Positions 48,989 through 60,754 of a stretch of 64,000 bases of DNA are shown one piece after another (position 1 is the stretch's first letter; every line of letters begins with the position of its first letter). The stretch lies in contig NZ_CP074570.1 of the NCBI RefSeq assembly GCF_019900845.1, positions 3,844,001-3,908,000 on the forward strand, given 5' to 3'. This DNA comes from Paraneptunicella aestuarii. Its GTDB lineage: Bacteria; Pseudomonadota; Gammaproteobacteria; Enterobacterales; Alteromonadaceae. The notes under the pieces were generated by a model that made no database searches, was not told the DNA's origin, and worked only from the letters and a program-made list of their open reading frames with translations. A program made the position numbers and the translations under genes.

Positions 48989-50305
48989 CTATAGTTCAGC
49001 CTGCATTCTCTCAAAGCTTTTCTGCTCGCCTGAAACGAAAGACTGCCATTGTTGAGCCATCTTGCGCGTCTGCTTGAATTTTTCAGCCAAGGCTAATTGA
49101 TTCAACGCCTCATTAAATTCCTTCTTGTTAAATAGCGCCATGCCAATAACCAGATGAGAAGTGCCAGGGTTACGCAATCCACCTTTCTCGATAGACTTTT
49201 CCGCTTCTGCAATGGCTTTGTCCCACTGTTCCATATTCAGGAAAATCTGGCTCAACTGGGCATTGAGCTCTCCATCAGTAGACAACTCTGCCGCAGCTTG
49301 CATAACCGGAATAGCTTTGTCATTTTCCTTGGCTGCTGCCCAGCATTGTGACAAGAAACGCAAATTACGCAGATTCTTTTCCAGCTTGCCGTTATCAAAG
49401 GCTTCTTCCATCAAACGAGCCGCTTTATAAGGCACTTGATGGTAGTAATACAGCTGAGACAAGTTGAAGATATCAGAGCCCTTCTCAACATACCCCTGCT
49501 GATAAGCCGACTCCATTACAGCTAACTGCTTTTTCTCTTCACCAATCTCGCCGTACATACCACCTAGCTGCAACCAATATTTAGGCTGGTCGTAATAACG
49601 AACTAATTTAACCAGAATATCAGTCACCTTCTTAGGCTGCTTTAGCTCGTAATAAATTGCGCGTTGCAAGATATACCAGTTTTCTTCAGCAATACCCTTT
49701 TCAGGATCAGCTTCTACCAACTCAATCGCTTTGTTGATATGAGTTAATGCAACGTCATATTGCTTTTGCTGATAACGAGCCTGAGCTTTTAACAGGAAGT
49801 TTTTAGGTGGAATATCACCGGTTTGTAGTGTTTCCCAACGCTCCAGATACTCGATACTTTTATCAAATTTCCCTTGCATCAAGCTCAACTGAGACAAACT
49901 AAACAAGGTCGTTTGTTCAAAAGATTCCGGAATAGGCTGTTGTGCAACCACCTGCTCAAACGATGCAATCGCCTCGTCGTATTTCTCGGCATTGTAATAA
50001 ATGAACCCATAAAAGTTGTACATCATAGCTTTTTCATAGCTATTCATGGAGTCACTTTTATCTTTCACCTTATCCAATACTTCAATCGCCTCGGCAACCT
50101 TACCTTCGTCACCCAAGGCCTGAGCGCGAGCTAACTGTTCGTAAACACGAGCTCTTAGTGCCGGTGTACGACGCGTTTTACGTTCTTTTTTCTCTTCCTG
50201 TGCATAAGCTTTGCCTGAATCAGCAACAGGAACGATAGAAGGAGCTACCAATATAGCAACGGTTGAAGCCGTCAATATGGAAACTCGCAAGAATTGTTTG
50301 ATCAT
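48989..50305 (-). CDS. Exported TPR protein of the TonB2 operon
   Basis: A 438-residue protein with a signal peptide (about 1-36, ending KAYAQ) followed by a basic segment and about eight tetratricopeptide-like repeats, for example EKYDEAIASFEQVVAQQP. Probably periplasmic. It is the last gene of the six-gene TonB operon, 9 bases after tonB. TPR proteins in this position are common in Vibrio- and Shewanella-like TonB2 systems; they are thought to assist the transport complex, but the exact role is not known. Confidence 0.88.
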   Translation of the reverse strand: MIKQFLRVSILTASTVAILVAPSIVPVADSGKAYAQEEKKERKTRRTPALRARVYEQLARAQALGDEGKVAEAIEVLDKVKDKSDSMNSYEKAMMYNFYGFIYYNAEKYDEAIASFEQVVAQQPIPESFEQTTLFSLSQLSLMQGKFDKSIEYLERWETLQTGDIPPKNFLLKAQARYQQKQYDVALTHINKAIELVEADPEKGIAEENWYILQRAIYYELKQPKKVTDILVKLVRYYDQPKYWLQLGGMYGEIGEEKKQLAVMESAYQQGYVEKGSDIFNLSQLYYYHQVPYKAARLMEEAFDNGKLEKNLRNLRFLSQCWAAAKENDKAIPVMQAAAELSTDGELNAQLSQIFLNMEQWDKAIAEAEKSIEKGGLRNPGTSHLVIGMALFNKKEFNEALNQLALAEKFKQTRKMAQQWQSFVSGEQKSFERMQAEL

Positions 50306-50314
50306 TGCGCCTCC

Positions 50315-50923
50315 TTAACCATCGATCTCAAATGAGATACGGTTTTGAACGCCTGCCACTTCAGTTGGCTCTCCATTCACCACTCTCGCCTTATATTTGA
50401 ACTTCAATGCCGCGTCGATTGCGGCCTGCTCAAATATGCCTTCAGGATTGGCTTCCACCACGATAGGATCTCGAACCGAACCTTGCTTGGTCACTGTGAA
50501 TTCCACGATAACATAACCTTCAATACCACGTTGTAGTGCTCTACGCGGGTACACAGGCGCCACCTTAACGATAGGCAAGTATTCACCATCACCAGACTCA
50601 AGCGCCAAACCACCACCAAGATCCAGGTCATTGCCCACATCAGCGGCAAAGTCTATATTTCCGCCCTCTGAATTAGGTGAAGCAGAATCAAGTTGTGGTT
50701 GGTTCATTTGCGGTGGAGGTTCTTTCGGCGGAGGCGGTTTACGCGGTTTGCGTTCCTTTTTCTCCGCCGATTCTTCTTTCTTTACTCGTACAAAGTCCAG
50801 AACACTGCCGCGAGGCGGATCTGTTAATGCACTACCGCCACTCTTGATCAGCGACTGCATCACATAAAACAGCGCCAGCGTAATGCCCAGACTTAATACT
50901 AACGCGATTAATATCCGTGACAT
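50315..50923 (-). CDS. tonB: TonB-type energy transducer (TonB2 class)
   Basis: Carries the energy of the proton gradient to outer-membrane receptors. The 202-residue protein is short: an N-terminal membrane anchor (about 5-27), a short proline/lysine-rich span (KPRKPPPPKEPPPQ), and the C-terminal TonB domain (about 112-202) with APVYPRRALQRGIEGYVIVEF-like sequence. Shortness is a mark of the TonB2 class, which relies on TtpC. It starts 2 bases after exbD. Confidence 0.93.
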   Translation of the reverse strand: MSRILIALVLSLGITLALFYVMQSLIKSGGSALTDPPRGSVLDFVRVKKEESAEKKERKPRKPPPPKEPPPQMNQPQLDSASPNSEGGNIDFAADVGNDLDLGGGLALESGDGEYLPIVKVAPVYPRRALQRGIEGYVIVEFTVTKQGSVRDPIVVEANPEGIFEQAAIDAALKFKYKARVVNGEPTEVAGVQNRISFEIDG

Positions 50924-50925
50924 AA

Positions 50926-51333
50926 TTACTGCTCTGCTGCTGCGATAGATACGTCGTAGGCTCCCGCTGCTCTGGAAGCGTCCATTACTTTAATCAGGGT
51001 ATCCACATCGGCTTTCTTGTCAGCCTGAATCACCACTGAGCCTTGAGGGTTTTCCGCTTTCAAGCGTTCAATGTTGGCCTGAACTGCACGTTGGTCAACC
51101 TTACGCTTGTTGATCCAGATCTCGCCCTTGTCAGAAATAGCCACCAAAATGGTTGCCCGAGGTTTGGAAACTGCCGTTGCAGCTTCTGGACGATTCACAT
51201 CAATACCCGCTTCTTTTACGAAAGAGGCTGTAACAATGAAGAAAATCAACATGATAAATACAACGTCCAGCATGGGCGTCATGTCAATTGTGGCTTCTTC
51301 CTCTTCCACCAGGTTTTGAAAATGTTGTTTCAT
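50926..51333 (-). CDS. exbD: ExbD-type proton channel subunit
   Basis: A 135-residue membrane protein with one segment (about 20-40) containing the conserved aspartate in PMLDVVFIMLIFF, the proton-carrying residue of ExbD/TolR/MotB proteins, and a small periplasmic domain. It works with ExbB and TonB. Operon member between exbB and tonB. Confidence 0.95.
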   Translation of the reverse strand: MKQHFQNLVEEEEATIDMTPMLDVVFIMLIFFIVTASFVKEAGIDVNRPEAATAVSKPRATILVAISDKGEIWINKRKVDQRAVQANIERLKAENPQGSVVIQADKKADVDTLIKVMDASRAAGAYDVSIAAAEQ

Positions 51334-51410
51334 CTTTCTCTCACTTACCCTTGGTTTGGGTTAAGTGCCGACCAATATCGGCACTCAGTTATGTCTTTCA
51401 GCCAATCGGT

Positions 51411-51944
51411 TTAGCCTTTGTGGCGATCCAGTTGCAATGCATCTTCAATGTGTAAGCGCTCAGACTTGGTGGTACGAACCAACCAGGTAGAAGCAAATAC
51501 ACCAGAAAGAGCGCCAACCATGCCAGCCATAGTAGGAATGGTTGCTTTGGATACACCTGACGCCATTGAACGAGCGTTACCCGAACCGGAAATAGCCATT
51601 ACATCGAATACTTCAATCATGCCCGTTACTGTTCCCATCAATCCCAACAATGGACACAACGCGACCATGGCCTGGATCACCGGAATTGAAGTTTTCAAGC
51701 TCAAATCCAAACGGGAAACCAACATTTGGCGAATTTGCTCTGCGTTCCAACTGCTCTTATCTTTTCGAGCATACCAGTTGGCGATTACGTGCTCTTTTTC
51801 CTTGCGATGCCAAATGAAGAAGTACAGTGCACGTTCCAGAATCAGTAACCACATCACCATGATTAGGAAACCAATGGCCAGAAGTACCTGACCACCTGTT
51901 TCTGTGAAATCCCGAATGGCTTCTAAAAATTCAATTAAGAACAT
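51411..51944 (-). CDS. exbB: ExbB-type proton channel subunit
   Basis: A 177-residue MotA/TolQ/ExbB protein with three membrane segments; the conserved core is LCPLLGLMGTVTGMIEVF. It forms the channel with ExbD. It sits between ttpC and exbD; the 77-base gap to exbD is the widest in the operon. Confidence 0.95.
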   Translation of the reverse strand: MFLIEFLEAIRDFTETGGQVLLAIGFLIMVMWLLILERALYFFIWHRKEKEHVIANWYARKDKSSWNAEQIRQMLVSRLDLSLKTSIPVIQAMVALCPLLGLMGTVTGMIEVFDVMAISGSGNARSMASGVSKATIPTMAGMVGALSGVFASTWLVRTTKSERLHIEDALQLDRHKG

Positions 51945-51961
51945 TGGTCTACTCCTTGAAC

Positions 51962-53329
51962 TTACGCTGTTTGCTCAGCGCGTTCAGCAATGACTCCAGC
52001 AGACTGTTCTTGAAGAATACTTACGATAGCTTTACTACGCGTGTTCAGCAGTGCGTACAGTAAGGTAGTCGGAATAGCCACAACCAAACCTAATACTGTG
52101 GTGACAAGTGCTGTAGAAATACCGCCAGCCATCAATTTAGGGTCTCCCGTACCAAACAAAGTAATTGCCTGGAAGGTGTTGATCATACCGGTAACAGTAC
52201 CGAGTAGACCCATAAGCGGAGCAACAACCGAGATAATCTTAACGATGGTCAGGAAGCGAGTCAGCTTCGGCAATTCGCCCAGAATCGACTCAGTCAAATG
52301 CAATTCCAATGCTTCAACATCGGCATTTGGATACTGATCACGAACCTGCATCACTCGACCAAGAGGGTTGTCGTTTTTGAAAGTGGTTGATTTCAACTGA
52401 CGATCAACTTTCACCTTAATCAATGAAAGGGTGATCAATCTTTCCAACGCTAACAACAAACCTACCGCACCAACAGCCAGAATGATGTAACCAACCAAGC
52501 CACCTTGCTCAATACGTTCTTGCAAGTTAGGCGCTTGTACCAACAAACCAAGGATAGAACCACCGGTTGGATCCAAACCGAACTCAACAAACTCGCCTTT
52601 AGACGCTTGCAGTGCCGCAGCGCTGTCGCCGTATCTGTCGGCTGGCTGGCGAATCAATTCTGCTACAGTGCCCGTTGCACTGTTGTAATCCAGATATTTG
52701 CCATCAGCAATCAAAGCGAAAGGCCCAACACGAACCACATCTTTGGTTACTTTGGTTCCACCCGCTTCAACCACGTCGGTAGAAAAGCGTACAACCTTAC
52801 CGGATTCCGTCATTTCACGTTGAACTTCAAACCAAACGCGCTCAATTTCTTCGATAGACGCCAACTTCGAGCTGGTTCCCATTGATTGCGCCAGGTTATC
52901 CAAAAATTCACCACGTCCTGGAATTTCGGCAGAAATCACAGAGTTAGCAAATTTGTTTTTGGTGTCACCCGATACTTGCTGCAACACACCAAACAGTTCT
53001 TTCAAAGAACCCAGACGCTTGCTCAAGGCTTCATTCAAATCAGCGATTTTGAACTCGTTCTCTTCGAAGCTGGTTTCCAGACGCTCACTGCGGTTTAACT
53101 CGTTGTTACGAGTGTCAGTCGCTTCACGCAACATGCGATCCTGTTCAGATACCTTCGCCATGAACTCTTTTTCACGGCTAGCATTCTGTTGATTCTGTTG
53201 GTATTTACCTTCTTCCAACTGCTTCAATAAAGCATCCAGATCCAAAGGTTTGGATTCCGCAGCCATTGCACCGCCAGCCATGAAGGAGGTCATCAATGCA
53301 GCAGAGATAAATTTAAACATGCTTTTCAT
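51962..53329 (-). CDS. ttpC: TtpC-like MotA/TolQ/ExbB protein of the TonB2 system
   Basis: A 455-residue protein with a signal peptide (ending GGAMAAES), a periplasmic coiled-coil region (about 35-130), a further periplasmic domain, and a C-terminal ExbB-like unit with three membrane segments (about 275-440, core LMGLLGTVTGMINTFQ). This matches TtpC of Vibrio TonB2 systems, an extra component needed for TonB2 function. It is second in the operon, 11 bases after the DUF3450 gene. Confidence 0.92.
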   Translation of the reverse strand: MKSMFKFISAALMTSFMAGGAMAAESKPLDLDALLKQLEEGKYQQNQQNASREKEFMAKVSEQDRMLREATDTRNNELNRSERLETSFEENEFKIADLNEALSKRLGSLKELFGVLQQVSGDTKNKFANSVISAEIPGRGEFLDNLAQSMGTSSKLASIEEIERVWFEVQREMTESGKVVRFSTDVVEAGGTKVTKDVVRVGPFALIADGKYLDYNSATGTVAELIRQPADRYGDSAAALQASKGEFVEFGLDPTGGSILGLLVQAPNLQERIEQGGLVGYIILAVGAVGLLLALERLITLSLIKVKVDRQLKSTTFKNDNPLGRVMQVRDQYPNADVEALELHLTESILGELPKLTRFLTIVKIISVVAPLMGLLGTVTGMINTFQAITLFGTGDPKLMAGGISTALVTTVLGLVVAIPTTLLYALLNTRSKAIVSILQEQSAGVIAERAEQTA

Positions 53330-53340
53330 TATTCCCGCTC

Positions 53341-54111
53341 CTACTCAGTCATCGCCACTGGCAGCATTAGAAGGTCTGGTGCCATTTGTTTCTTCGCCAT
53401 ACGTAGACCTTTCGTTACCTGAGTACGATAACTGGAAGGTAGCGCTTCCCATTGATTGGTTTGCTTGTTCCAAACACCTTGCAAGCTTGCATCACGAGTT
53501 TGATATACCAACAAGGTACGACCAACACGCAAGAAATCGACGTCACGCGCAGTACCTTCAACCGTCAACAAACCGGAATACGCTTCCATGGTACGACCGT
53601 AGTCCATTTCAACCTGATAGGCTTCCATCACTCGACGGAATTTTTCAGAAACAGACACATCCGCACGATCCATCATGTCGCGCAAATCCGCAATTCGCTT
53701 GCTACGCTCTTCCGGCAAGAAAGGCACATCTAAAGACACGAACTGTTCCAAACCGTCGATCATGCGCATCATCAATGGCGTAATTTGACGCTCGATAACG
53801 CTGACTTCGTCGATAGACTTGTTCAGGTCAGCCATTTCCTGAACCTGATTCTGGATTTGCTTTTGCAACTGAGCGTTGTAAACACGCAAACCATCGGTTT
53901 CTTTATTGATGGTTTTGAATTTCTGAATTTTGCTCTCGATCTTGTCGGTAATACCGTTGATCTTCTCTTGCGAGCTTGCTGCTGACTCGTTGATTTCAGA
54001 GGCAGCTTTTACAACAGGCTTTAAATACCCATCTTCTTGTGCAATTCCCGTATTAGCAAAGGCCATGCTGGCTGCTAATACTGCGACTGGGAACGTCTTG
54101 GAAAGCTTCAT
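53341..54111 (-). CDS. DUF3450 exported coiled-coil protein
   Basis: A 256-residue periplasmic protein: signal peptide (MKLSKTFPVAVLAASM, cleavage about NTGIAQ), coiled coil (about 30-110), then a globular beta-rich part (FLRVGRTLLVYQTRD). DUF3450 genes head TonB2-type operons in marine gammaproteobacteria; the protein probably touches TtpC or TonB, which is inference. First gene of the operon, with AGGGTAAG as ribosome binding site. Confidence 0.9.
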   Translation of the reverse strand: MKLSKTFPVAVLAASMAFANTGIAQEDGYLKPVVKAASEINESAASSQEKINGITDKIESKIQKFKTINKETDGLRVYNAQLQKQIQNQVQEMADLNKSIDEVSVIERQITPLMMRMIDGLEQFVSLDVPFLPEERSKRIADLRDMMDRADVSVSEKFRRVMEAYQVEMDYGRTMEAYSGLLTVEGTARDVDFLRVGRTLLVYQTRDASLQGVWNKQTNQWEALPSSYRTQVTKGLRMAKKQMAPDLLMLPVAMTE

Positions 54112-54385
54112 ATAGTCTTACCCTAAGCGTGATGATTACTGGCAGAAATGCCCTAATTTTGCTGGGGGCAGTTTAGGCAGGGTATGTGACAGTTTTATTA
54201 CATTTGAATGAGGACTGGATGAAAACTCTAAAGCTGAATAAAACTAACTTTACAGCAGGTAAAAATATTCATCAGAGATGGTTTAAAAGAAGAGTTCGTT
54301 TCAAATAGCGGAAAAGAGAAAAAATTTCTGCAACTTCAATTTTCCTTTACTACACTTTTTTCAGTCAACCAACAAAGGGGATGTT

Positions 54386-55768
54386 ATGCCTTCGGTAGCT
54401 ATCATCGAAAGCTGTAGTCATACCATTGAAGAAATAAGACATTCAATCGCTCAAACCAACCATAAGATCATTGCTATCACAAGTGAATTTGAAGAGTCGA
54501 TACTCACCCATCTTTGCCCAGATATTATCATAGCCGACTTTTCGTTCGTGCAACGAAAGCAATTCATGTTGTTTATGGAAAAGCTTCATTCAATTTCCCC
54601 CAACACCATTATTATTGCTGCAATAGAAACCAATAACGACGCATTGGTAGAAAAGGCGCTAGAAATCGCGGTTAACGACATCATTCGCAAGCCCATATGC
54701 GCTCGGGAACTCGTTCACAGAATACAACTGAACAGTGAGCTCAAGTCATTGCTCAAAGAAGCAAATGCTTCAAATAAAATCGCACCGTCTACCAAGCAAG
54801 AAACGCAAAAGAATAATCTGTCATCGGATCAGATTCTGGGCGACAGCGAACAAATTCATCAACTCAATGCCACTATCAAGCGAGCTTCCAGACTGGATTG
54901 GAATGCACTAATTCTCGGTAAGTCAGGCTCAGGAAAAGAACTGGTAGCCAAAGAAATCCATAAAAAAAGTAACCGCTGGAGCAGCCCCTTTATTGCATTA
55001 AATTGCGCTGGATTAAATGAGAGTCTTTTGAACTCTCAGTTATTTGGTCATGAAAAAGGCGCATTCACTGGCGCAGACAAACAAGTCAAAGGTGTATTTG
55101 AACTGGCAGATTCAGGGACATTGTTTCTGGACGAAATAGGCGACCTTCCACTCAGCATGCAAGGGATACTACTTCGTGTGCTGCAAGACAGCCAGGTAAC
55201 CAGAGTGGGCGCTCAAACCCCGATCAATGTGGATGTTCGTCTCGTATTCGCGACTCATAAACCTCTTCAGCAGTTAGTGCAAGAAGGAAAGTTCAGAGAG
55301 GATCTGTACTACCGAATTAACAGCCTGATTATCAATGTGCCCAGCCTTAAAGAAAGACGCTCCGACATTCCGCTGTTATTAACCAGTTTCCTGAATAAGC
55401 TATCTATCAGTATTGATGAGGATCCCAAACAACTGAATGCCGACGCCATGCATTGGTTAACGCAGCAATTATGGCCTGGTAATGTTCGACAACTTCAGCA
55501 AGTTGCCAGAAAGCTGACCTTGCTCACCTACAAATATATTTCCCTGGAGGATTGTATGGAAGCTTACGGCGCAGAGCATGTAGAACAGAATGTACAACCT
55601 CGGCTGGAAATCTCTAACTATAAAAATATTCAACAAAAGAATGAAGCTGAATATATTCGTAAAATCCTAATAGAATGCAATGGTGTCCGTTCCGACGCTG
55701 CGAAAAGGCTTGGCATTGGACGAGCTACCCTCTATAGAAAACTGAAATCATTAAATATTGACGATTAA
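54386..55768 (+). CDS. Sigma-54-dependent transcriptional activator with receiver-like domain
   Basis: A 460-residue enhancer-binding protein. The N-terminal receiver-like domain (about 1-115) keeps the phospho-acceptor position Asp51 and Lys102, but the usual acidic pair is reduced to Glu8-Ser9, so phosphorylation may be altered. The AAA+ domain (about 148-385) has Walker A GKSGSGKE (178-185), the sigma-54 contact loop GAFTGA (225-230) and Walker B LFLDE. A Fis-type helix-turn-helix closes the protein ([19 protein letters not shown]). No sensor kinase is adjacent. The two downstream genes each have a -24/-12 promoter and repeated TGTCTCA sites, so they are its likely targets. Confidence 0.93.
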
Positions 55769-56004
55769 CCCAGTCTTATGGAACGGAATTCCCCTTCACA
55801 TTGCATTTTCTTTTCAGCCCTTGCTTATTATAACTAAGCGAGACTCTCTACACTTACACATCAACCAAAAGCTTCTTCATCAACATAAAACTCCCTTTAT
55901 CCCCCCCCATTTAAAGCAAATTTAATTTCCAATCACATTAGAGCGTGTTCTTACATGAATGCATTCTACATGATTGATTTTTAAGCATTTAGTTGTTTCA
56001 TTAA

Positions 56005-56052
56005 TGAGACAGGTGTCTCACGTGTCTCACCAATTCCTTCAAGATTGAGACA
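56005..56052 (+). promoter_or_regulatory. Enhancer-like TGTCTCA sites before paralogue 1
   Basis: Four copies of one 7-base half-site: TGAGACA (56005-56011), TGTCTCA (56014-56020), TGTCTCA (56023-56029) and TGAGACA (56046-56052). The first two form a perfect palindrome with a 2-base spacer, and the first three starts are 9 bases apart. They lie 76-123 bases upstream of the -24 element, as expected for activator sites of a sigma-54 promoter. Confidence 0.82.
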
Positions 56053-56127
56053 CTTTTTCCAGCAAACGCATATCGGTAAAAATTACAACCGATTGATTTT
56101 TAATGATTTTAGAAAAAAATTATGCAC

Positions 56128-56143
56128 TGGCAATATTTTTGCT
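56128..56143 (+). promoter_or_regulatory. Sigma-54 promoter of paralogue 1
   Basis: TGGCA-N6-TTGCT with GG (56129-56130) and GC (56141-56142) exactly 10 bases apart, a good match to the sigma-54 consensus TGGCAC-N5-TTGCW. It lies about 70 bases before the start codon. Confidence 0.82.
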
Positions 56144-56212
56144 CTATTGAAAATGACTTAAACACAAGCAGTTTTAATTTTTAACATAGAGCCAATCTGG
56201 AAAACTAAAATA

Positions 56213-57499
56213 ATGAAACTAAATAAACTAACAACAAGCATTTTGAAGGGTCTTTTCGTAGCAGCAGTAAGTGTAAGTGCAGTTTCTGCACAACCAAATC
56301 TAAGTTTTGATCAATACGATATCACTCAAGTGGGCTGGAGCGTTGTTTACACCGGATGTACTTTTGATGCTGCGTCTCAAACTGCCACTTACAGCTATGA
56401 CTTGACTGTAGACAGTGCAGAAAAAGATCTGTCTCACTGGGTGCTTGCTTTCGACACGGATATGGTCATTGTTGATTCTACGGGTAACGCTGTAACCGAA
56501 TTCGGCCTCGACCCAACAACAGGTGTGTACGGCTTCAAATGGGATAGCGGTCAAGATTCTGGCACAACCCAAACCTACACTCTCACAGTGAATGGTGAAT
56601 GTAATGCGGTAGCAACTGAGTATTCAGTGAAAGGTGGTACCTACTTCGCCATCGGTGAAACAATGGGGCCTTCAGCAGGTGACGGTGGTGGCGATCCAGA
56701 AATTACTACCTATTCAATCTCAGGTTCTCTGTACATAGATGCCAACAACAACCAGTCTCTTGATAGCGACGAGCCAGCTTTGAACAATACCACTGTTCAA
56801 CTACTTGATGACTCAGGTTCTATCATTGCAGAAGCCTTCTCCGACGGTAACGGTAACTACACCTTTGAAGGTTTGCTACCGGGCAATTACACAGTGGTTG
56901 TGCCAGAAGCCACTGCCGACATCGACAGCGACTTTAACGAATCATTAACCGAATACTACAACACCTGGTCAAACCTGACTCCCGTGACAGTTGTCTCTCA
57001 AGATGTGGCTGACGTTGATTTTGGTTACAGCGCAGATATGGGTGCAGTGTTGGATGACCTTGACCCAACCGACCCTGACGCTGACGGTTACAGCTTCATC
57101 GGTTCAGGTAAAACCATCGGTTTCTGGAAGCATCAACATGCCGTTGCTCTTAAAGGCAAAGGTCGTGCTCACATCGACAGTGAAACCCTGACTGATTACC
57201 TGACTACTATCGAATCACTTTGGTTGTCTAACCCTTATCAGTTCGGTGCAGCAAAAATCAGTGCAAGTAACGACATTCTGTCAGCGCGTACTTCTGATGA
57301 AACTGAACTGCTGAACAAGCAAATGTTGGCGACTGAATTAAACCATGTTGACGGAAGAGGCTTGACCGACAACCTGGAACTACAAGCTACCTTGCTAGCC
57401 TACGGTGAATACGTCAGTGCCTATAATGCTCAGTTTACTCGCGAAGAAGTCCTGGCAGTGAAAGACCTGATGGATACCATCAACAACTCTGGTGAATAG
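56213..57499 (+). CDS. Secreted multidomain protein, paralogue 1
   Basis: A 428-residue exported protein with a signal peptide (cleavage about SAVSA-Q27). Domain 1 (about 30-155) is beta-rich with Cys49 and Cys130 as a possible disulfide. A Gly/Asp linker follows. Domain 2 (about 166-275) is an SdrD-B/CNA-B-like Ig fold (GSLYIDANNNQSLDSDEPAL, then GNYTFEGLLPGNYTVVVPE). An Asp-rich DPTDPDADG calcium-site-like stretch leads to a C-terminal domain (about 294-428) opening with TIGFWKHQHA. No sorting or membrane anchor is seen at the C-terminus. The next gene is a close paralogue. The gene has its own sigma-54 promoter, activator sites and terminator. Probably an extracellular or surface protein; the role is unknown. 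Confidence 0.88.
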   Translation: MKLNKLTTSILKGLFVAAVSVSAVSAQPNLSFDQYDITQVGWSVVYTGCTFDAASQTATYSYDLTVDSAEKDLSHWVLAFDTDMVIVDSTGNAVTEFGLDPTTGVYGFKWDSGQDSGTTQTYTLTVNGECNAVATEYSVKGGTYFAIGETMGPSAGDGGGDPEITTYSISGSLYIDANNNQSLDSDEPALNNTTVQLLDDSGSIIAEAFSDGNGNYTFEGLLPGNYTVVVPEATADIDSDFNESLTEYYNTWSNLTPVTVVSQDVADVDFGYSADMGAVLDDLDPTDPDADGYSFIGSGKTIGFWKHQHAVALKGKGRAHIDSETLTDYLTTIESLWLSNPYQFGAAKISASNDILSARTSDETELLNKQMLATELNHVDGRGLTDNLELQATLLAYGEYVSAYNAQFTREEVLAVKDLMDTINNSGE

Positions 57500-57532
57500 T
57501 ATTTAATCCCGTCCTCAACTTGTTTTAGCTTG

Positions 57533-57560
57533 GCCCCATCTTAATTGATGGGGCTTTTTT
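57533..57560 (+). terminator. Terminator of paralogue 1
   Basis: Eight-bp stem GCCCCATC/GATGGGGC with loop TTAATT and a T6 tail; it separates the two paralogues into independent transcription units. Confidence 0.92.
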
Positions 57561-57572
57561 GTTTGTCTTGCT

Positions 57573-57620
57573 TGTCTCAACTGTCTCAACTGTCTCAAGA
57601 AATGATCCATATCTGAGACA
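57573..57620 (+). promoter_or_regulatory. Enhancer-like TGTCTCA sites before paralogue 2
   Basis: Three direct TGTCTCA copies at 57573, 57582 and 57591 (9-base spacing), then TGAGACA at 57614-57620; a degenerate fourth direct copy TGTCTTG is in phase at 57564. They lie 74-121 bases before the -24 element, almost the same distance as for paralogue 1. Confidence 0.82.
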
Positions 57621-57693
57621 CTTGTCCCCTTCCCTTTCAGGTAAAAAAGTTGCAGCAACATGATTTTGATAGGCTTTTTACAACCTGCAAAAC

Positions 57694-57709
57694 TGGCAGC
57701 CTTCTTGAA
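57694..57709 (+). promoter_or_regulatory. Sigma-54-like promoter of paralogue 2
   Basis: TGGCAG-N5-TTGAA: the -24 GG (57695-57696) is perfect and the spacing is right, but the -12 GC is GA. It lies 57 bases before ATG 57766. A weaker promoter than that of paralogue 1 is likely. Confidence 0.6.
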
Positions 57710-57765
57710 TCCCTTACATTCTCACTTTCACCAAAATCTCTTCAACTCCATTGGAAATCAAGCTA

Positions 57766-59049
57766 ATGAAATTAAGCAATTTAACATCATGCATTTGTAA
57801 AGCGCTTTTTTTAACAGGTTTAAGTGTAAGTAGTGTTTATGCAAAGCCAAATCATAGCTTTGATCAATATGACATTACCGATGTTGGATGGAGTGCGTCT
57901 TATACAGGATGCTCCTTTAATGCCGACACACAAACAGCCACCTACAGTTACCAAATGACAGTAGACAGTGCTGAGAAAGACCTGTCTCATTGGGTACTTG
58001 CATTCGATACAGACATGGTCATAGTCGATTCAACTGGCAACGCAAATACCGACTTTGGACTCGACCCAACAACCGGTGTGTATGGCTTTAAATGGGACAG
58101 CGGTCAAGATTCAGGTACAACGCAAACTTACACGTTAACCGTCAATGGTGAATGTAATGCCGTGGCGACAGAATACTCAGTGAAAGGCGGTACTTACTTT
58201 GCCATTGGTGAAACCATGGGCCCGTCTGCTGATGGCGGTGATGGTCCAGACCCTACAACCTATGCTATCTCTGGCTCTGTGTATATTGATGCCAACAACA
58301 GTCAGTCACTGGATATTGATGAGCCCGCTCTCAATAACACAACGGTACAATTACTGGATGCATCAGGCTCAGTGATTGCTGAGACGCTATCCAACAGCAG
58401 CGGCGATTACCAGTTTGAAGGCTTATTGGCTGGTAGTTACAGTGTTGTTGTACCAGATACGACCACCGACTTTGAAGGCGACTTCAACGAAACATTAACC
58501 GAATACTACGATACCTGGTCGAACATGACTTCGGTCACTATTGATTCGCAAGATGTTGCTGACGTTGATTTTGGTTATAGTGCAGATATGGCAGCTGTGA
58601 TGCACGACCTTGACTCAGCAGACCCAGACGACGACGGATACAGCTTCACTGGTTCAGGAAAAACCATTGGCTTCTGGAAGCACCAGCACGCCGTCGCTTT
58701 GAAAGGCAAAGGCAGAGCTCACATCGACAGTGAAACACTCATTGGATACCTGAACACCATTGAATCACTATGGTTAGCCAATCCGTTCCAATTCGGAACT
58801 GACAAAATTAGTGCCAGCAATGAAATTCTGTCAGCACGTACATCGGATGAAACCGAATTACTGAACAAACAAATGCTAGCCACTGAGTTAAACCATGTGG
58901 ATGGCAGAGGCTTAACAGACAACCTTGCACTTCAGGCAACCTTATTGGCTTACGGAGAGTATGTCAGTGCCTACAGTGCGCAATATACTCGCGAACAAGT
59001 GTTGGCGGTCAAAGATATGATGGATGCGATAAACAATTCCGGAGAGTAA
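57766..59049 (+). CDS. Secreted multidomain protein, paralogue 2
   Basis: A 427-residue paralogue of the preceding protein, with the same order: signal peptide (MKLSNLTSCICKALFLTGLS, cleavage about SSVYA), Cys-containing beta domain, SdrD-B-like Ig domain, Asp-rich link, and the TIGFWKHQHA domain. By eye roughly four residues in five match, with long identical runs in domain 1 and the C-terminal domain, and more change in the signal peptide and Ig domain. ATG 57766 fits the paralogue start better than the upstream in-frame TTG 57751. DNA-level codon choices differ often between the copies, so the duplication is not recent. Regulated by its own upstream sites. Confidence 0.88.
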   Translation: MKLSNLTSCICKALFLTGLSVSSVYAKPNHSFDQYDITDVGWSASYTGCSFNADTQTATYSYQMTVDSAEKDLSHWVLAFDTDMVIVDSTGNANTDFGLDPTTGVYGFKWDSGQDSGTTQTYTLTVNGECNAVATEYSVKGGTYFAIGETMGPSADGGDGPDPTTYAISGSVYIDANNSQSLDIDEPALNNTTVQLLDASGSVIAETLSNSSGDYQFEGLLAGSYSVVVPDTTTDFEGDFNETLTEYYDTWSNMTSVTIDSQDVADVDFGYSADMAAVMHDLDSADPDDDGYSFTGSGKTIGFWKHQHAVALKGKGRAHIDSETLIGYLNTIESLWLANPFQFGTDKISASNEILSARTSDETELLNKQMLATELNHVDGRGLTDNLALQATLLAYGEYVSAYSAQYTREQVLAVKDMMDAINNSGE

Positions 59050-59083
59050 CGTTCAAGCCAAAAACAACTCCAATTGCAAAGCG

Positions 59084-59117
59084 AAAAGGCGATGAGGATA
59101 AATTCTCATCGCCTTTT
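59084..59117. terminator. Bidirectional terminator
   Basis: Perfect 13-bp stem AAAAGGCGATGAG/CTCATCGCCTTTT with an 8-base loop between the convergent paralogue 2 and hydrolase genes. Confidence 0.93.
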
Positions 59118-59139
59118 GTTTGATACTAACCTGGAAACA

Positions 59140-60438
59140 CTAATCCCAGTCAGAAGCGCTCAGATTGTAATCGTGAGCACTGACATTTCCCTTCAATTTC
59201 TCCAGCTTGGTTTCTGACCCAACGATAGCCTGATACCAGGAATCGATCATGGATTTTGAGTTCTGCTCACCAAGAAACTCGGTCAATGTGTCTTCTGGTT
59301 TCCATTTACGATCTTGCTTGTTGCCACCAAGATAAACACCTCTTCCATCAGCCAAACCGGGAATGTCTTTATGGTTCAAGGATGTCAATTTGTCAGACAC
59401 AATGGAAATGCGTTGCGCATGATCTTTATATTCACTCAAGTCATCACCCGATGGAGCGACGATCTGACCCAACCCAAAATTCCCATTAAGGTTCAATGGT
59501 TGTAACCAGTCTTGAGTGATACTGGCATCCAATTGCACATTCCATCCAGCTAAAAGCTTGCCGACTTTGCTCACAACAGAACGATAAATATGCAGGCCAA
59601 CAGGGTCTGCATTGCCGTTTTGAGCAGCTTCAGCGCCTCCATAAGGATACAGATTTCCAACTAATGTTGAATGCGTACCCGGCACTTCATATAAACAGAA
59701 TGTGCGACCATCTGTATCACCTAACATGGTTGGCATAGTGGTAGCAAAACCATGTGAACGCTCATCGTGAGCATAGAAACCATGAAACTCGCTGACGTGC
59801 TCAGGCAGTTCCCACCAATTAGTCAGGTTCTTAACAATGGTGTACACACTTTCCGTCAAGTTCTTCGCTCTGGTAACACCTTGAGACAGCCAGGTTTTAG
59901 CGCCCATAATCGCGATGTCTGTCCAGCCCAAATCCAGTGCACGAATATTGGTGCCCAAACCAGATACAGGATCAAAAGCGATAACCTTGATATCCAAATC
60001 AATACCAGAATCTTCTTCTGATTCAACCTTATCCCAGATCTTGGACAGCATATGCGCGGCATAGATACAACCAATACCACCACGGCTCCAGCCCATAAGC
60101 GTTACAGTCAAGGTTAAGTCTCGCTGATTTTGCTGGCGTTGTTGATTAGCACGAAACAGATTGTCTCTGGCTTCCATCACAAAGTTACAGATGTTCTGAA
60201 CGTCTTCGCGCATTTTCACACCAAAGGCAGTGCCAACAGTGTTGGTAACAATATTGCCGTCCGTTTTGCTGCCACCCACACCATGAATTCTCAGCACATT
60301 GGCCTGTTCCTGATTGTTGATGTTCTTGGCATAGTACCCAAATCGGGAAACGATCTCTCCGTGGATAAAGCGCCCTTCTTTTCTAAAGTCTTTATCGTAA
60401 TTTGAATCAGTACCGTTATAAAAAACATGTAATCGCAT
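59140..60438 (-). CDS. Tle-like alpha/beta hydrolase (putative lipase/phospholipase)
   Basis: A 432-residue serine hydrolase resembling DUF2235/Tle phospholipases. It opens with a strand and FYNGTDSNYDKD, then IHGVGG (51-56). The nucleophile elbow GWSRGG places Ser118. Asp156 in IAFDPVSG and His256 in VPGTHSTL complete a likely triad, in the order and context seen in Tle1-type effectors. There is no signal peptide, as in type VI effectors and cytoplasmic enzymes. No VgrG, PAAR or immunity gene is adjacent, so an effector role is unproven. Monocistronic, between two strong terminators. Confidence 0.78.
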   Translation of the reverse strand: MRLHVFYNGTDSNYDKDFRKEGRFIHGEIVSRFGYYAKNINNQEQANVLRIHGVGGSKTDGNIVTNTVGTAFGVKMREDVQNICNFVMEARDNLFRANQQRQQNQRDLTLTVTLMGWSRGGIGCIYAAHMLSKIWDKVESEEDSGIDLDIKVIAFDPVSGLGTNIRALDLGWTDIAIMGAKTWLSQGVTRAKNLTESVYTIVKNLTNWWELPEHVSEFHGFYAHDERSHGFATTMPTMLGDTDGRTFCLYEVPGTHSTLVGNLYPYGGAEAAQNGNADPVGLHIYRSVVSKVGKLLAGWNVQLDASITQDWLQPLNLNGNFGLGQIVAPSGDDLSEYKDHAQRISIVSDKLTSLNHKDIPGLADGRGVYLGGNKQDRKWKPEDTLTEFLGEQNSKSMIDSWYQAIVGSETKLEKLKGNVSAHDYNLSASDWD

Positions 60439-60701
60439 GCTACTTACTCCCGTGGCGGAATCTCATTTGGCTTAAAACGATCCCGGAAAGATTGTCATTA
60501 ATGCCCGTATATCAGTTTGAAATATCTGACTCAAAAACAGGCAACCGTTTAATCATTTCACGTTAGAGCAGAGGCAGGAGATATACACGGATAAAGGCAG
60601 GTAGAAGTCGTTATAACTTGGGATTTATGACAAATGGTAGCAAAAGTGACGCATTCGTTTTTTCTTAAAACGGCTGTAACATTGTTTGTCATCCAAAACA
60701 A
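60439..60701. other. Intergenic region upstream of the hydrolase gene
   Basis: About 260 bases up to the receptor terminator. It should hold the hydrolase promoter; no other structure or credible frame seen. Confidence 0.4.
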
Positions 60702-60733
60702 CAAAAGCCGCCCCTTCAACTGGGCGGCTTTTG
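60702..60733. terminator. Terminator of the TonB-dependent receptor gene
   Basis: Perfect 12-bp stem CAAAAGCCGCCC/GGGCGGCTTTTG with an 8-base loop, 21 bases beyond the receptor stop on the minus strand; symmetrical A/T runs. Confidence 0.9.
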
Positions 60734-60754
60734 AACTCAAATAACAATTAAACT

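Follow-up and report, generated by a model that had tools for sequence, protein, structure and literature searches.

In Paraneptunicella aestuarii, a gene for a sigma-54 activator lies upstream of two genes for secreted paralogues, and each paralogue gene is preceded by four exact copies of one heptad at matched positions. We think it likely that the activator, the heptad clusters, the −24/−12 elements and the two secreted-protein genes form a dedicated sigma-54 circuit. A sequence-only reading of the same 64-kb stretch of DNA (hereafter the window) had proposed such a circuit, and two results support it as a prediction from sequence: the clusters are confined to this locus in the genome, and four of the 19 other loci with a paralogue relative also have an activator adjoining it. 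That reading also called the circuit self-contained. This is apt for the activator, the enhancers and the targets, whereas sigma-54, the possible bend by IHF and the input signal would have to come from elsewhere.

Activator, enhancer clusters and promoters

The activator gene (54386..55768, + strand) encodes a bEBP of 460 aa with a degenerate receiver domain, an AAA+ domain and a Fis-type helix-turn-helix (HTH). Pfam assigns Sigma54_activat (PF00158) at 1.6e-66 and HTH_8 (PF02954) at 5.2e-12 (45.7 bits). The Walker motifs are present, and GAFTGA is intact at residues 225–230, as had been read from the letters.

Cluster 1 (56005..56052, + strand) consists of TGAGACA at 56005 (−), TGTCTCA at 56014 (+) and 56023 (+), and TGAGACA at 56046 (−). 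Cluster 2 (57573..57620, + strand) consists of TGTCTCA at 57573, 57582 and 57591 (all +) and TGAGACA at 57614 (−). All eight sites are exact and their offsets are 0, 9, 18 and 41 in both clusters, so counting bears out the description of four half-sites per gene with three phased at 9 bases. The distances had also been given correctly: the first site lies 123 bp (56005 to 56128) and 121 bp (57573 to 57694) from the −24 element, and the last site ends 75 bp (cluster 1) and 73 bp (cluster 2) before it, against the roughly 75 bases claimed. Four or more sites appeared in 0 of 20,000 dinucleotide shuffles of each intergenic region. The supposed perfect palindrome at 56005–56020 reads TGAGACA-GG-TGTCTCA; its heptads are palindromic, its 2-bp GG spacer is not. 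The first site of cluster 1 is inverted relative to its counterpart in cluster 2, with the offset kept. When the clusters are aligned at that site, the spacer bases have mostly diverged and site pairs 2, 3 and 4 are unchanged. Because the heptad has TG...CA ends on either strand, inversion preserves these ends, which may explain the orientation flips between the clusters.

The motif had been thought absent from the rest of the window. This did not hold: we found 14 heptads where shuffles predict 8.65, and six of them are single copies outside the clusters, including two within the paralogue coding regions (56430 and 57983). Only the clusters are special; single heptads occur at chance level in the window. 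In the genome, searched as a single contig of 4,913,533 bp, exact TGTCTCANNTGTCTCA occurs three times, always at this locus, and the next places listed carry two mismatches. (Degenerate TGTCTCANNTGTCTCA sites with three mismatches are too frequent genome-wide to be informative.) The pattern TGTCTCA-N1-30-TGTCTCA gave four matches, three at this locus (reversed control: 1). By eye, the fourth lies in an apparent chemotaxis-receptor frame. Both genomic matches to TGAGACA-N60-90-TGGCAN6TTG are at this locus (reversed control: 1), as are five of the seven to TGTCTCA-N90-120-TGGCAN6TTG, the other two lying within long open frames (reversed control: 0). These counts of TGTCTCANNTGTCTCA and of heptads combined with a −24/−12 pattern thus reveal no random spread of the clusters, the outcome that the sequence-only reading had named as telling against its proposal.

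Promoters were scored with a simple sequence-based scheme of our own. The element TGGCAATATTTTTGC (56128..56142, + strand), 85 bp before the ATG of paralogue 1, has GG at −24 and GC at −12 with standard spacing. Its score of 16 is the best there and was matched by 0.15% of 2000 shuffles. The putative promoter of paralogue 2, TGGCAGCCTTCTTGA (57694..57708, + strand), lies 72 bp before the ATG and has GG at −24 and an imperfect −12, GA rather than GC. Its score of 14 is equalled by about 10% of shuffles and by a rival site at 57639; it is unremarkable by itself, and it is its position that argues for it. The assignment of a −24/−12 promoter to both genes is therefore sound for the first and weaker for the second.

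Between the enhancers and promoter 1 lies an exact match (56086..56098, − strand) to WATCAANNNNTTR, which we take to be the IHF consensus. At the window's own density, 0.013 exact matches are expected per 75 bp; the 64-kb window holds 11 of them compared to 4.91 in shuffles, i.e. twice as many. An IHF-like site with one mismatch precedes promoter 2 (57659..57671, − strand), and it is weak because 0.14 such sites are expected per 75 bp. These candidate sites would fit activation by looping, as weak evidence for it. A terminator-like hairpin with a T-run (57532..57555, + strand), found by pattern match only, lies between the paralogues and suggests that they could be separate transcription units; hits to this pattern are no commoner in the region than in shuffles (4 vs 4.5).

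Exported paralogues and their C-terminal domain

Paralogue 1 (56213..57499, + strand; 428 aa) has a signal peptide, an Ig-like SHWV domain, an SdrD_B domain and a C-terminal TIGFWK domain. Paralogue 2 (57766..59049, + strand; 427 aa) is 82% identical to it and most likely starts at ATG 57766, the open-reading-frame list beginning the frame at TTG 57751. The signal peptide, read by eye, is a hydrophobic stretch ending VSAVSA-QPN, and both proteins end INNSGE. Their description as surface or secreted proteins stands as regards the signal peptide; a recognised anchor is missing. Neither sequence has an SD repeat or LPXTG, neither matches a PEP-CTERM model (NCBIfam up to E 0.1, Pfam up to E 1), and against the MSCRAMM Sdr adhesins the SdrC model gave 19.5 bits compared to a cut-off of 1700.

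An AlphaFold2 model built from a 37-row alignment has a pLDDT of 90.5 and a pTM of 0.64. Over residues ~36–277 the model is similar to SdrD/UafA and CnaB-type pilin domains. The fit is close for single domains (8bdw_A, rmsd 2.4 over 91) and has an rmsd of 11–15 in the long alignments to SdrD. The C-terminal ~130 residues form an all-helical domain that reaches a pLDDT of 92.9 when modelled alone. We found no clear structural match to this domain in the PDB, and searches of Pfam and NCBIfam with 18 members gave scattered weak hits at most (best E 0.02 and 0.005).

The motif TIG[FY]WK is present in 78 of 87 homologues, 111–131 residues from the C-terminus in 77 of these 78. An alignment of 18 rows (the two window paralogues and 16 of the 19 relative loci; L016, L018 and L022 were excluded because the TIG[FY]WK pattern gave no frame) has 17 invariant columns. 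Six of them are TIG[FY]WK itself and are partly invariant by selection, as the rows were picked by this motif; the other eleven are not. By eye, the signal sequences of the relatives in L013, L014, L015 and L017 look like those of lipoproteins, and the C-terminal domain is therefore probably the part on display, not the anchor. A simple lipobox pattern flagged 6 of the 87 homologues but missed some that were clear by eye.

Distribution of the locus and its pairing with activators

The locus is absent from close relatives. Two genomes, a genus-mate (G001) and G016, lack the stretch 54112..60754: the DUF3450 and TonB-receptor genes that flank it lie next to each other there, ~0.2–0.3 kb apart (L106 and L107, respectively), compared to 6.6 kb in the window. 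In G010 and G012 we located the DUF3450 gene but did not see the receptor within the stretch taken. Among 395 genomes of the family, just one has full-length relatives of the paralogues, namely that of the window; the genus-mate genome has none. The simpler reading is a gain of the 6.6-kb stretch in the window lineage, and the gene set is possibly mobile.

As the sequence-only reading had suggested, we looked for co-occurrence of activator and paralogues elsewhere. A tblastn search of 19 relative loci (229,297 bases) with the window activator (E up to 1) found four activators, in L010, L013, L014 and L015. All four adjoin the paralogue relative; the one in L015 is divergent, and the other three lie upstream in the same orientation. 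Since L013 and L014 are near copies, these represent three lineages besides the window. The L015 relative matches from residue 166 onward only.

In L010, L013, L014 and L015, a −24/−12 element lies 82, 81, 81 and 72 bp upstream of the selected start, and elements of this kind occur in 0/2000, 0.4%, 0.2% and 1.5% of shuffles, respectively; L013 has an alternative start 15 bp upstream, and the start chosen in L015 is a GTG after AAGGAG. L010, which groups with Myxococcota, has AGTCTCA sites 121, 104 and 70 bp before −24, and any such triple heptad arises in 0.6% of shuffles. In L015, AAACCAG sites lie 126, 111 and 67 bp before −24, a borderline case (5.9% of shuffles). No repeated heptad was found before −24 in L013 or L014. 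Not every member of the protein family is paired in this way: tblastn found no activator in the available DNA of 15 of the 19 loci (L008 comes without upstream DNA), no convincing −24/−12 element lies upstream of the relative in L007, L009, L011 or L012, and L024 has a −24/−12-like site (score 15) without an activator.

Further pairs may exist among the activator homologues. Leaving aside the window protein itself, P0083 ranks first and P0085 third among the activator matches listed. The longest contig is 9163 for both P0083 and the paralogue relative P0003, and 5216 for both P0085 and P0005; these equal values, and only these, suggest that P0083 is linked to P0003 and P0085 to P0005. We built an activator tree from 37 rows picked from 120 listed hits, plus the window, L010, L013, L014 and L015. 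It has several long branches, and the placements of L010 and L015 are unsure. Seven rows were labelled as lying next to a member of the protein family, P0083 and P0085 on the strength of the suggested linkage; the label requires 4 changes on this tree, of which at least 3 are forced. Even so, the labelled rows cluster more than shuffled ones do, only 4 of 500 shuffles giving so few changes, and the near copies L013 and L014 contribute to this. With at least three forced changes the paired activators do not make up a single clade, and the pairing seems to have arisen repeatedly instead of being inherited from one origin.

Interpretation and relation to known systems

In the circuit that we favour, the activator encoded at 54386 would bind both heptad clusters, the DNA between cluster and promoter would bend, perhaps with the help of IHF, and the AAA+ ring would remodel sigma-54 polymerase at the −24/−12 elements, thereby turning on two separate single-gene units. 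Each unit would yield a Sec-exported modular protein in which the Ig-like and SdrD-B domains may serve as a stalk and the conserved C-terminal helical domain forms the probable working head; that the paralogues act in adhesion or in a matrix is a guess.

While it is possible that the heptads are bound by another regulator, a repressor or an unrelated activator, and that the neighbouring activator acts elsewhere, this seems improbable to us. NtrC-type proteins usually bind palindromes, and direct heptads at 9 bp are unlike these. Moreover, the activators beside the relatives fall in different branches of their family, so shared descent does not link the window activator to the heptad. However, the sites lie at the usual enhancer distance from −24, a sigma-54 promoter requires an activator of this kind, and in L010 an adjacent, distantly related activator goes with the near-identical heptad AGTCTCA at the same distance. 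A still less credible account, to which we give very little weight, is that the two promoters resemble each other because a gene was duplicated along with its upstream DNA and that the motif has no function. The genes are indeed in tandem, with 82% protein and 76.5% DNA identity in the coding regions. Yet the intergenic regions are only 66% identical in a gapped alignment while every site offset is kept: three site pairs are identical, and the remaining one differs by an inversion in place. Moreover, the shuffles described above did not produce four exact copies in either region.

Another alternative touches the input only and is compatible with the dedicated circuit: the activator could be fed by a remote kinase in an ordinary two-component pathway of the PrsK-PrsR type. 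We regard this as rather doubtful, if less so than the two alternatives above. In its favour, an alignment of 12 picked activators shows that the window protein keeps D51, aligned with the phospho-acceptor, and the Lys near the receiver end, and two members of its clade, P0085 and P0088, have receivers that look intact, together with an extra segment. Against it, E-S stands where the acidic pair would follow the first strand, and Response_reg (PF00072) gives 23.8 bits, under its cut-off of 30.2, so that the protein does not qualify as a canonical response regulator. Both the Asp and the Lys are lost in P0083, the nearest relative (53% identity over 90%), and they are also absent from the L013 and L014 activators. 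P0084 begins downstream of the receiver's first strand in the same alignment, and the N-terminus of the L010 activator differs from the others and looks PAS-like by eye. This variation indicates that the inputs differ among activators; with a degenerate receiver, the signal sensed by the window activator is a matter of guesswork.

Returning to the dedicated circuit, it is tempting to speculate that an activator and an exported TIGFWK-domain protein make up a recurrent, sporadically moving regulatory and display module, with activators and enhancers of differing descent and sequence, similar promoter geometry and the new helical domain as its working end. We put this forward tentatively, at somewhat less than even chances. 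Such a module would span the window lineage, the Myxococcota-grouped genome, a Neomarinimicrobiota genome and one further lineage. Where repeat sites are seen, they lie ~67–126 bp before −24, which itself lies ~72–85 bp before the start.

The locus offers a very small, fully testable sigma-54 regulon of one activator, two promoters and eight matching sites, with an unusual enhancer whose heptads, three of them spaced 9 bp, stand in either orientation. The presence of activators beside the same family in unrelated bacteria suggests that tight, on-demand production matters in those lineages, and the conserved, uncharacterised C-terminal domain merits structure solution. Three features appear new, namely the enhancer built of heptads, the family of proteins that share the C-terminal domain, and its repeated pairing with activators; we found no earlier account of them in the open-licence literature searched.

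Parts of the system have known counterparts. It is common for sigma-54 promoters to drive genes for exported or surface material, as set out by Francke et al. 2011 (PMC3162934) and in PMC4641369 (the D. vulgaris regulome); this is a general trend, and the passages on it do not describe such a protein family. Among Gram-positive surface proteins, SdrD/UafA B domains and CnaB-type pilin domains resemble the putative stalk, but the Sdr model is not reached here, and in place of their wall anchor the paralogues have a C-terminal helical domain of no known kind.

Nearly the same promoter layout is found with PrsR and the PEP-CTERM genes, which also combine a Fis-type sigma-54 activator with exported proteins in single-gene units behind long upstream regions. 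According to Haft et al. 2006 (PMC1569441), PEP-CTERM promoters have an activator motif, sometimes repeated, then a spacer of mean 62.8 nt (32–92) to the −24/−12 element, whose motif ends on average 71 nt before the start codon; here the corresponding distances are 75 and 73 bp to −24, and 70 and 57 bp from the element's end to the start. Transcription of the PEP-CTERM gene pepA is RpoN1-dependent by experiment, according to PMC9850573. Motif 1 in PMC1569441 is 17 nt long and ends TTTACA, compared to a clustered 7-nt heptad here, and 99 of 167 proteobacterial PEP-CTERM genes are concerned there, compared to two targets here. The activator scores far under the PrsR cut-off (TIGR02915, NCBIfam; 308.3 bits vs 502.6) and the paralogues lack a PEP-CTERM match. 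With neither model matched, the window system works like the PrsR and PEP-CTERM systems and is a different one.

The insert and its neighbours

Besides the sigma-54 activator and the two secreted paralogues, the 6.6-kb insert holds a gene with a GWSRG motif on the reverse strand (window 59140-60438), whose similarity to Tle1-like phospholipase effectors is sub-threshold (E 0.058, 13.2 bits, cut-off 27). Adjoining the insert, also on the reverse strand, are a DUF3450 gene (match of 1.2e-91) and then further frames (window 48989-54111). The DUF3450 gene has relatives in all 9 genomes searched; by eye, the frames that follow it resemble ExbB/TolQ, ExbD, TonB and TPR proteins, and the group as a whole is probably an ordinary one.

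Additional heptads at the paralogues

Upstream of the heptad cluster preceding the second paralogue, a degenerate copy, TGTCTTG (window 57564-57570), forms a fifth heptad in step with the cluster's 9-bp period. TGTCTCA also lies within the coding sequence of each paralogue (window 56430 and 57983), at conserved LSHW codons, and we take these copies to be due to chance.

Relatives of the C-terminal domain

The C-terminal domain of the paralogues also ends proteins of seven loci (L015, L017, L019, L020, L021, L023 and L025), whose record labels include Neomarinimicrobiota, Spirochaetes and Chloroflexi. In several of these proteins SdrD_B-like stretches precede the domain, and some carry lipoprotein-like signals.

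Arrays beside a Cas1/reverse transcriptase gene

Elsewhere in the genome (G000:C1:2038480-2045790, equivalent to L110 2481-9787), CRISPR-like arrays with the repeat GTCTCAACAGCTTCAAACAGCTAGTGGTTCCAGAC and a period of mostly 67-71 nt flank both sides of a 1026-aa gene. This gene encodes a Cas1 domain (6e-69) and a reverse transcriptase domain (1.5e-36), and it has a Cas6 match slightly under cut-off (24.2 against 25 bits). By eye, several repeats are broken up at roughly one common position by related longer elements that duplicate a portion of the repeat; it looks as though CRISPR repeats were the target of a small mobile element.
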